Assembly: GCA_024641095.1 (NCBI GenBank)
Contig: JAHEDR010000002.1
Span: forward strand, 62,001 to 126,000
Source: Rhodoluna sp.
GTDB lineage: Bacteria > Actinomycetota > Actinomycetes > Actinomycetales > Microbacteriaceae
Direction of reading: 5' to 3'
DNA length: 64,000 bases
This document shows, piece by piece, positions 652 to 61,081 of the stretch (its first letter is position 1; each line of letters opens with the position of its first letter). Under the pieces are notes generated by a model that did not search any database, was not told the origin of the DNA, and was given only the letters and a program-made list of their open reading frames with translations. Position numbers and translations under genes: made by a program.

Positions 652-1104
652 ATGTCAAAGATCATTCTTACTAACGAGGTTTCAGGCCTCGGTTCAGCTG
701 GCGATGTAGTTGAGGTTAAGAACGGGTTCGCTCGTAACTACCTACTACCTCGTGGTTTTGCAGTGCTATGGACCAAGGGTGGTGAGAAGCAGGTTGATTC
801 AATCAAGGCTGCTCGCGCTACTCGTGCTCTTGCAACTGTTGAAGAAGCAAACTCTCTTAAGGCAGCTCTTGAAGGCAAGTCAGTTCGTTTGACTGCTAAG
901 GCTGGCGTTGGCGGTCGTTTGTTTGGTTCAGTGAAGACCGCAGATGTTGCAGCAGCAGTTGCAGCAGCTGGTCTTGGTGAAATCGACAAGCGCAAGATTG
1001 CTTTCGTATCTCCGATCCGCAACACCGGTGAGCACCTAGCAACCGTTCGTCTACACGGCGACACCGTTGCTACCATCACCCTTCAGGTGTCTGGTCGCAA
1101 GTAA
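652..1104 (+). CDS. rplI: 50S ribosomal protein L9
   Basis: The 150-residue product has the L9 N-terminal RNA-binding domain signature ([20 protein letters not shown], residues about 15-35), a long helix and a C-terminal domain. L9 binds 23S rRNA near the L1 stalk and supports translational fidelity. The start has a strong Shine-Dalgarno (aaggagaaa) 7 bases upstream. It is the last gene before a strong terminator, so ssb-rpsR-rplI probably ends here. Confidence 0.97.
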
Positions 1105-1525
1105 GGACCGAGCGCGGCGCTAGACGCGGTGTTCGCAACTTGTGCGAATAACTTGAGAACGGGTCCCCAGTGGGGACCCGTTTTTGCATGCCGGCCTATT
1201 GTGCCCTGATTGGGGACAACTCTTGTGGATAACTCGCCGAGCACCTGTGGATAAGTGCTCTTTTGGGCGAGTTATGCACAACCTTGAGGGTTAGGTTTAG
1301 GGTTTATAAAAAACCTTATCCCCAGTCCGACTGCCCAGTAAACACAAGGGATTCAGGGGAGATTCCACATATTGCTCACAGGGTTATCCACAACTTATGC
1401 ACACCTATAACGGCGTGTCCGCACAGTTATCCCCAGTTTTGTTCACAAGGCGTTTTCTCGATTGCGTGTCATTAGTGGATGCTAGACAAGTATCGGTCTG
1501 AAATAGACCTAAAGATTGGGTAAAA
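1105..1525. other. 420-bp intergenic region between rplI and dnaB with a DnaA-box cluster
   Basis: This is the only gap over 300 bases in the window. It opens with a rho-independent terminator and then holds a run of 9-mers matching or nearly matching the DnaA box TTATNCACA: on the minus strand at 1224-1232 and 1246-1254 (both TTATCCACA); on the plus strand at 1272-1280 (TTATGCACA), 1316-1324 (TTATCCCCA), 1384-1392 (TTATCCACA), 1395-1403 (TTATGCACA), 1427-1435 (TTATCCCCA) and 1439-1447 (TTGTTCACA). Between two groups lies an AT-rich stretch near 1303-1318. No convincing ORF is present; a 70-codon frame at 1263-1475 is made of the repeats. It could regulate dnaB, titrate DnaA, or be part of a replication origin. 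Confidence 0.75.
1158..1185 (+). terminator. Rho-independent terminator after rplI
   Basis: An 11-bp perfect stem (arms 1158-1168 and 1172-1182, core CGGGTCCCC/GGGGACCCG) with a 3-base loop is followed by a T run at 1181-1185. It lies 54 bases after the rplI stop. Confidence 0.9.
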
Positions 1526-2881
1526 ATGTCATTGCTAGCTGTTCCTCCGGTTGATCCAAGCCGCGGAAACGAGCGCATGCTGCCAAACGATATGTTGGCC
1601 GAGCAAAGCGCGCTGGGTGGCATGTTGCTATCGGCTGAGGCCGTAGCCGAGGTTCAAGAGGCCGTTCGCGGAGCCGACTTTTACGCCCCAAAGCACGAGA
1701 CCATTTTTGACGCAATTCTCACGCTTTTTGCAAAGGGTGAGCCAACAGATGTCATCACCGTCACAGACGAACTAACCAAGCAGGGAAACCTGGTCAAGGC
1801 TGGCGGTGTTGATTACTTACACACCCTTACTTCTATCGTGCCAACTGCAGCCAACGCTGCGTTCTACGCGCAGATCGTTGCCGAGAAGGCAACGCTTCGC
1901 CGCCTGGTAGAAGTTGGTACCAAGATTGCTCAGCTTGGTTATGCCAACGAGGGTGAAGTTGAAGACCTGGTTAACCAGGCACAGAACGATGTTTACGGTG
2001 TGATGCGCGGTGCCACCAAAGAAGACATCGTTGATCTAAACGTTTCTCTTGAAGCAGCTATTTCTGAAATTGAGCGCGCACAATCTCGCGGCGGCGAAAT
2101 GACCGGTGTGCCAACCGGTTTCACCGAGCTAGACGAAATGACTCACGGTTTGCACGGTGGTCAGTTTGTAATTCTTGCGGCGCGACCTGCGGTTGGTAAG
2201 TCAACTCTTGCTCTTGACTTTGCTCGCAACGCTGCAATCAAGAACAAGCAAGCAACTGTTTTCTTCTCACTTGAAATGGGTCGTGCTGAAATTGCTATGC
2301 GCATGCTTTCTGCCGAGACCGGTATTTACTTGCAAGACCTTCGCAAGGGTTCAATTGGTGAAACCCAGTGGACTCGCATTGCTCAGGTTCGTGGCCAAAT
2401 TAACGATGCACCGCTTTACATTGACGACTCACCAAACATGACTCTGGTTGAGATTCGCGCGAAGGCTCGTCGTTTGATGTCACGCGTTGATCTAAAGATG
2501 ATCGTGATTGACTACCTGCAGTTGATGACATCGGGTAAAAAAGTTGAATCACGTCAGCAAGAAGTTTCAGAGTTCTCACGTGCTCTAAAACTTTTGGCCA
2601 AAGAACTTAATGTTCCGGTGATTGCAATCTCACAGCTAAACCGTAACTCTGAGCAGACCAAAGACAAGAAGCCAGAAATTTCGCAGCTTCGTGAATCTGG
2701 TTCCCTTGAGCAAGACGCCGACGTTGTAATTCTTTTGCACCGCGAAGCGCAGTACGAAAAAGATCACCCACGTGCAAACGAAGCCGATCTAATTCTTGCT
2801 AAGCAACGTAACGGACCTACCGGCACAATTGCAATTGCGTTCCAGGGTCAGTACTCACGCTTCATGAACCTTAAGCAGTAA
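1526..2881 (+). CDS. dnaB: Replicative DNA helicase DnaB
   Basis: The 451-residue product has an N-terminal DnaG-binding domain (MLPNDMLAEQSALGGMLLS near residues 18-36) and a RecA-like hexameric helicase domain. The P-loop is ARPAVGKST (about residues 218-226), and VIDYLQLM and RESGSLEQDADVV give Walker B and later motifs. DnaB unwinds the lagging-strand template at the replication fork. There is no intein, although several actinobacterial dnaB genes carry one. The ATG is preceded by gattgggtaaaa, a poor Shine-Dalgarno. The DnaA-box cluster lies immediately upstream. Confidence 0.97.
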   Translation: MSLLAVPPVDPSRGNERMLPNDMLAEQSALGGMLLSAEAVAEVQEAVRGADFYAPKHETIFDAILTLFAKGEPTDVITVTDELTKQGNLVKAGGVDYLHTLTSIVPTAANAAFYAQIVAEKATLRRLVEVGTKIAQLGYANEGEVEDLVNQAQNDVYGVMRGATKEDIVDLNVSLEAAISEIERAQSRGGEMTGVPTGFTELDEMTHGLHGGQFVILAARPAVGKSTLALDFARNAAIKNKQATVFFSLEMGRAEIAMRMLSAETGIYLQDLRKGSIGETQWTRIAQVRGQINDAPLYIDDSPNMTLVEIRAKARRLMSRVDLKMIVIDYLQLMTSGKKVESRQQEVSEFSRALKLLAKELNVPVIAISQLNRNSEQTKDKKPEISQLRESGSLEQDADVVILLHREAQYEKDHPRANEADLILAKQRNGPTGTIAIAFQGQYSRFMNLKQ

Positions 2882-61067: not shown

Positions 61068-61081
61068 GGTTCAATTGGTAC

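Follow-up and report, generated by a model that had tools for sequence, protein, structure and literature searches.

Why should the gene for a replicative helicase be preceded by a dense row of predicted binding sites for the replication initiator DnaA? The gap between rplI and dnaB in Rhodoluna sp. (Microbacteriaceae, Actinomycetota) raises this question near the start of a 64,000-nucleotide stretch of one contig (C1:62001-126000, hereafter the window, to whose positions all coordinates without a contig name refer). The genome searched for DnaA boxes comprises 1,204,394 bases in 11 contigs. A first-pass annotation had suggested that the cluster marks a DnaA-controlled dnaB promoter, a titration or reactivation site, or even an origin. 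From sequence comparison across relatives, we conclude that the gap is probably a compound control region for dnaB, in which DnaA boxes are combined with a predicted operator for the regulator FtsR. The genes and boxes are as follows.

652..1104, plus strand: rplI, ribosomal protein L9, the upstream neighbour (open reading frame, ORF; tblastn in relatives)
1526..2881, plus strand: dnaB, replicative helicase, the gene thought to be controlled (ORF; 74 relatives)
1224..1232, minus strand: DnaA box TTATCCACA, exact (pattern match, as for all boxes below)
1246..1254, minus strand: DnaA box TTATCCACA, exact
1272..1280, plus strand: DnaA box TTATGCACA, exact, its last base common to the FtsR-type operator
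1316..1324, plus strand: DnaA box TTATCCCCA, one mismatch
1384..1392, plus strand: DnaA box TTATCCACA, exact
1395..1403, plus strand: DnaA box TTATGCACA, exact
1427..1435, plus strand: DnaA box TTATCCCCA, one mismatch
1439..1447, plus strand: DnaA box TTGTTCACA, one mismatch

The eight 9-mers are present as first described, spanning 1224-1447 (224 bp) with two on the minus and six on the plus strand, and five of them match TTATNCACA exactly. Six exact matches occur in the window against 1.62 expected. With one mismatch allowed, the window shows no overall enrichment (39 against 47.9 expected), so the clustering of the boxes, not their number, is the point. Of 24 exact boxes genome-wide, five belong to the dnaB cluster, the most of any place, and four to the gap between dnaA and dnaN; when 24 sites were placed at random, none of 20,000 trials put four inside 180 bp. 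Three other exact boxes lie on contig C7 (132467, 132501 and 133019; L083), near an ORF followed by ORFs that we named by eye as SAF-domain-like and ParA/MinD-like, and may form a further DnaA-regulated site.

We then asked whether the boxes are kept in relatives, using the pattern TTRTNCACA within 450 bp upstream of dnaB, with shuffles and the reversed pattern as controls. The nearest named relatives of the window's DnaB are Rhodoluna and other Microbacteriaceae metagenome-assembled genomes (MAGs), referred to here as the Luna set, a label that we presume to be apt, as we presume a freshwater habitat for the organism. An exact box precedes dnaB in 70 of the 74 named relatives with a dnaB locus, the four without one being Canibacter, a Nocardioidaceae MAG, a Bacillota MAG and Kribbella. 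Excluding these four together with Enemella and three Mumia left 66 Luna/Microbacteriaceae loci, and comparison of the gap showed the cluster to be conserved in every one of these close relatives (317 boxes, or 10.8 per kb, against 3.3 boxes in shuffles, none with the reversed pattern and 0.029 per kb elsewhere in the same loci). A class-wide survey of 69 loci, from 142 genomes with a match, yielded boxes in 50 (97 boxes; shuffles 0.88; reversed pattern 2; rest of the loci 0.021 per kb); for the element and operator counts below, seven of the eight excluded relatives (all except the Bacillota MAG) were added, giving 76 class loci. Among the family genomes examined (67 of the 88 that gave a match), at least one box lies upstream of dnaB in 62 and at least two in 48.

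The boxes also stay with dnaB when its surroundings change. Where rplI lies 0.9-3.2 kb from dnaB, 10 of 14 class loci still have a box in the 650 bp that precede dnaB. The distance between dnaA and dnaB on the same contig is 13-18 kb in 23 of 24 genus genomes measured (5.5 kb in the other), a list that leaves out G187 (~5 kb, dnaA cut by a contig end) and four complete genomes (~17-18 kb); in the class it is 10.9-70.7 kb in 43 of the 46 same-contig cases taken, wrap-around complete genomes and split dnaB genes being mostly left out. Retention despite a distant rplI and a variable distance to dnaA indicates that the boxes go with the dnaB gene. Separately, G187 and G188 each have their dnaA and dnaB matches on a single contig with a separation of only ~5 kb, as opposed to the usual 13-18 kb.

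These distances bear on the idea that the array is a locus like E. coli datA or DARS, which titrates, inactivates or reactivates DnaA, so that it buffers or resets the initiator near the origin and the expression of dnaB is incidental; FtsR could then shape the DNA as IHF does in E. coli. The array holds the most exact boxes in the genome, and in all five genomes compared around oriC it is the richest stretch (4-7 boxes in 300 bp, against 3-4 at dnaA-dnaN). Moreover, its position 13-18 kb from dnaA in nearly all genus genomes means that it is copied soon after initiation. Against this, the class-wide distance to dnaA varies widely while the boxes remain at dnaB, even with rplI elsewhere, and we regard a titration locus as fairly unlikely.

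The second component of the proposed control region lies inside the array.

1280..1304, plus strand: predicted FtsR operator, 25-bp inverted repeat AACCTTGAGGGTTAGGTTTAGGGTT (sole strict-pattern match in its own genome; top matrix match in 126 kb)
1305..1315, no strand: short AT-rich stretch from the operator to the next box (sequence; AT-rich columns in relatives)

The annotation had remarked on an AT-rich stretch with a TTAGG/TTTAGGG-like repeat between box groups. The stretch is real and is kept in relatives; rather than being telomere-like, it is the right half of the 25-bp inverted repeat at 1280-1304. In the portions of Kraxner et al. 2019 (PMC6683498) available to us, FtsR is described as a MerR-family activator of ftsZ in C. 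glutamicum, homologous to Rv1828 and conserved in Actinobacteria, that recognizes an inverted repeat of 25 bp, which at ftsZ reads AACCCTAAAGTAAAGGTTGAGGGTA. By length and sequence, the putative operator at 1280-1304 is of this published type. The genome encodes its own FtsR (NCBIfam NF050798, 234.7 bits against a cut-off of 150), whose C-terminal part is similar to the solved Rv1828 structure (E 1e-7), within the order FHA-domain gene, ftsR, second MerR gene (C7 ~337,500-339,300; L321). This neighbourhood is without the nuclease gene that the same portions of PMC6683498 place downstream of ftsR and before the second MerR gene.

Scanning 67 genus genomes, some of them incomplete, with the strict pattern AACCYTNA-N6..10-TTTAGGGTT returned 31 sites, all of 25 bp, in 30 genomes: 24 lie at dnaB, ~210-270 bp upstream of the dnaB match, seven lie just upstream of ftsZ, and there are none elsewhere; the reversed pattern returned none. 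We also scored the loci with matrices drawn from ftsZ leaders. The first comprised 32 distinct sites from 38 loci, seven of which had been found via the dnaB-derived pattern; the rebuilt matrix omits those seven and so consists of 31 ftsZ loci found independently of dnaB (25 distinct sites). With the first matrix, the dnaB site ranks first at 26.6 bits both in the 126 kb of its own contig (next unrelated match 11.7) and in 410 kb sampled, without its ftsZ, from a complete relative (next unrelated match 14.0); 63 of 67 dnaB upstream regions exceed the 99.9% background level and 60 exceed all 1981 background windows. With the rebuilt matrix, 59 of the 67 regions pass the 99.9% level and 58 outscore every one of the 1981 windows; the window's dnaB site scores 24.4 against a background maximum of 17.1. 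Among the dnaB loci that the matrix misses are one truncated locus and those of two genomes from cultured Microbacteriaceae. The overlap recurs as well, with a box-like sequence: in 42 of 63 loci, the nine bases that end with the first base of the operator agree with TTATCCACA at seven or more positions.

Could the repeat belong to another protein? On this account, dnaB has a plain DnaA-controlled promoter, and the repeat is the site of a different regulator, such as the second MerR protein, or a DNA structure. FtsR binding is here deduced from motif identity, the second MerR gene adjoins ftsR, and complementarity between the arms of the repeat is only partial, all of which would suit it. The repeat nevertheless has the length and sequence type published for FtsR, same-genus ftsZ-leader matrices fit it, and the strict pattern is confined to dnaB and ftsZ in the scanned genomes; we therefore consider the account unlikely.

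In the rest of the family, the operator half-site occurs in 33 of 65 loci, compared with none in coding stretches (which are shorter, median 351 bp) and seven in reversed sequence. In other Microbacteriaceae genera (L324-L389), the half-site AACYYTCAA lies 27-29 bp past the nearest upstream DnaA box in all 13 cases where one is present, which suggests a diverged FtsR-type site.

The arrangement of the gap around the array points to transcriptional control of dnaB.

1155..1185, plus strand: intrinsic-terminator-like hairpin after rplI, its 3' arm running into a T run (RNA fold -24.7 kcal/mol, z -3.86)
1411..1419, plus strand: conserved element CGGCGTGTC (GGCGTGT in relatives)
1467..1488, plus strand: promoter-like element TGTC-N10-GCTAGACA, with TAGACA at 1483-1488 as the -10 and without a conserved -35 (pattern in relatives)

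The box row, mostly in one orientation, is located between the terminator-like hairpin and the promoter-like element. TGTC followed after 9 or 10 bases by GCTA is found in 55 of 67 loci, in none of 67 coding controls and in 3 of 76 class loci. Spacing was measured in the 63 loci whose operator exceeds the 99.9% level with the 38-locus ftsZ matrix: the operator lies 199-202 bp from GCTA in 50 of 54 loci and 187-190 bp, about one helical turn less, in the other four. GGCGTGT is present in 58 of 67 loci (coding control 0/67; other strand 6/67; class loci 6/76), and the CGTGT of this CGGCGTGT element precedes the -10-like GCTA by exactly 67 bp in 50 of 51. A titration site would not need to keep a nearly fixed distance from a promoter-like element. 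A consensus terminator scan did not list the 1155-1185 hairpin, and no MerR-type -10 directly past the operator is conserved in the aligned flanks of 58 of the 63 loci.

Several other features of the gap were noted. GACAC is the motif of WhiA, and we considered WhiA as the reader of the CGGCGTGT element, with GGCGTGTT in 42 of 67 loci and GGCGTGTC in 26 of 67; the idea was not adopted, and we found no open-licence literature linking WhiA, GACAC and dnaB. A hairpin at 1332-1365 was rejected, its folding being no better than that of shuffles. By eye, an AT-rich element with CCC/GGG ends lies between box groups at 1334-1350, as CCCAGTAAACACAAGGG here and in CCAGTGTTTACTGGG-like form in relatives. 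Directly past rplI, some relatives carry in the rplI-dnaB gap a parS-like GTTTCACGTGAAAC (L015 4387-4400, L017 528-541 and L018 4602-4615), so assigned by what we take to be the parS consensus; parS-like sites in the Rhodoluna genome itself lie at C1:51078 and C1:51744.

Beyond their number, the boxes are regularly spaced, and two degenerate copies share the register.

1361..1369, plus strand: degenerate box GATTCCACA on the 11-bp lattice, candidate low-affinity site (sequence; periodic weak-box profile)
1372..1380, plus strand: degenerate box TTGCTCACA on the 11-bp lattice, candidate low-affinity site (sequence; periodic weak-box profile)

Gaps between same-strand neighbours are mostly 10-12, 21-23, 32, 43-46, 54-57, 65-67, ~111 and 155 bp; a few values (37 and 84, for example) fall outside this progression. 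They fit a period of 11.15 bp (R 0.84; 167 gaps from 53 of 67 loci after removal of near-copies), and the fit persists when only gaps of more than 15 bp are counted (112 gaps; R 0.80, reached by none of 2000 jittered sets). Degenerate boxes follow the same period, the mean match score (out of 9) being 2.8-2.9 in phase against 1.8 out of phase, values obtained without a shuffle control. With the period fixed at 11.15 bp, a held-out set of other genera in the family (65 loci, two Luna-like ones having been excluded from the 67) gave R 0.82 for 83 gaps (null 0/5000); each held-out locus has at most 4% of its 12-mers in common with any Luna locus. Removal of near-copies lowered relatedness within each lattice set, and the statistics are without a kinship model. 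Tentatively, and as something we would put just short of an even chance, dnaB transcription in Microbacteriaceae is gated by one ordered DnaA-FtsR complex, with DnaA on the 11-bp lattice and FtsR at a site that has a base in common with a box.

So many boxes, together with an AT-rich stretch beside a box pointing toward it, could also signify a replication origin or an accessory origin at dnaB. A conventional dnaA-dnaN origin was searched for and found ~16 kb away: dnaA lies at C1:47.1-48.6 kb with dnaN adjoining and, by eye, recF-like and gyrB-like ORFs beyond. The dnaA-dnaN gap is AT-rich (34% GC) with four exact boxes, compared with 45-51% GC in 100-bp windows over the dnaB array. Corresponding gaps in the genus carry 2-5 boxes (mean 3.2) at 33-43% GC (26 of 30 loci, the other four lacking a dnaN start). 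The cumulative GC-skew minimum of C1:1-126000 falls at 61,081, near dnaB and 2 kb off the array. Among five genomes, this one and four complete relatives, two have it 14-15 kb from oriC on one side and two have it on the opposite side, at 7 and 16 kb; in the fifth it coincides with an end of the stretch read. Since the minimum shifts among genomes, skew does not point to dnaB; the skew is both too faint and too inconsistent from one relative to the next for locating an origin to within 16 kb. By eye, following B. subtilis rules that we presume to apply and with no computation, we saw no DnaA-trio at the AT-rich stretch. We regard an origin here as very remote, and both this reading and titration are less supported than a compound control region.

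How might the region work? In the accessible parts of a mycobacterial study (PMC7738170, presumably Hicks et al. 2020), DnaA bound upstream of dnaB on M. tuberculosis DNA in vitro and, by ChIP-seq, in M. smegmatis in vivo, and a DnaA mutant with reduced binding there also under-expressed dnaB. Conservation with the gene, placement between hairpin and promoter-like element at near-constant spacing, and this mycobacterial binding together support well the DnaA-controlled dnaB promoter proposed at first pass. That annotation is in part supported, for the promoter and not for an origin, and it overlooked the FtsR-type operator and the 11-bp lattice. In the mechanism that we propose, DnaA would assemble as a same-side oligomer on the array and would most likely activate dnaB, from sites ~50 bp and further upstream of the start; the last boxes (1427 and 1439) would lie ~50-65 bp upstream of the inferred start, which is expected around 1490-1500. 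FtsR, binding beside the first plus-strand box, would most likely add a division-linked input by helping, blocking, or shaping or bending the DnaA complex. Helicase supply would then follow both the DnaA level and the division programme.

A number of observations weigh against this reading. The promoter-like element has no conserved -35, and a sigma-70 consensus scan found no promoter there, as might be the case for a promoter that depends on an activator. At the ftsZ promoter of M. tuberculosis, FtsR is placed between -35 and -10, according to the available text of PMC6683498, but the distance from the operator here to the -10-like element downstream is ~200 bp; classical MerR-type activation of this promoter is therefore unlikely. 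Strict operator matches are limited to 30 of 67 genus genomes, elsewhere in the family they are frequently replaced by a degenerate site (with the rebuilt matrix, 20 of 65 loci above the 99% level and 6 above 99.9%), and outside the family an FtsR-type site is absent upstream of dnaB (0 of 65 loci above 99.9%, 2 above 99%). Nor does the 11.15-bp lattice extend beyond Microbacteriaceae (22 gaps, R 0.06; best free period 10.49 bp, R 0.71), and a box is missing upstream of dnaB in 19 of the 69 class loci. The direction of control derives from one mycobacterial DnaA mutant, as far as the consulted parts of PMC7738170 go, and dnaB is not mentioned in those of the C. glutamicum FtsR paper (PMC6683498).

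Binding of DnaA upstream of dnaB is of a kind already known from mycobacteria. An FtsR-type operator embedded in a DnaA array at dnaB appears, on sequence grounds, to be new; in open-licence literature we found no report of FtsR or Rv1828 acting on dnaB. The 11.15-bp box lattice in Microbacteriaceae likewise appears new, with no literature search having been aimed at such a lattice. To our knowledge, the coupling of replication initiation to division in actinobacteria is poorly understood. If our reading is true, helicase supply would be a direct junction of replication initiation and cell division, with DnaA and FtsR competing or cooperating at a shared edge, and a single region upstream of a helicase gene with sites for both proteins would make the coupling directly testable in culturable, small-genome bacteria. 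A helical lattice across many genera of one family is also a natural candidate template for DnaA oligomers outside the origin and would be useful for studying DnaA as a transcription factor.

In E. coli, datA and DARS are DnaA-box clusters outside the origin with an architectural protein site (IHF or Fis) between box groups. The locus described here is likewise a non-origin cluster, possibly with an architectural protein site between groups; unlike datA and DARS, it lies at the control region of a replication gene. In Caulobacter, dnaB is reported to belong to the DnaA regulon, with predicted boxes upstream and DnaA-dependent expression (Hottes et al. 2005, as cited in the accessible text of PMC7738170 and PMC8203912). 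Predicted boxes upstream of dnaB are a feature in common with our locus; Caulobacter is of a distant phylum, and those texts do not mention FtsR for its dnaB. A review (PMC4285127) has, in its accessible parts, no bearing on dnaB. The mycobacterial dnaB region also has DnaA sites upstream of dnaB but belongs to another family, and an FtsR-type operator, a lattice or a fixed spacing is not described for it in the consulted parts of PMC7738170. The ftsZ operator of C. glutamicum is of the same 25-bp inverted-repeat sequence type as the repeat at dnaB; in contrast to that operator, as described in the available parts of PMC6683498, the one predicted here abuts a DnaA box within a DnaA array.
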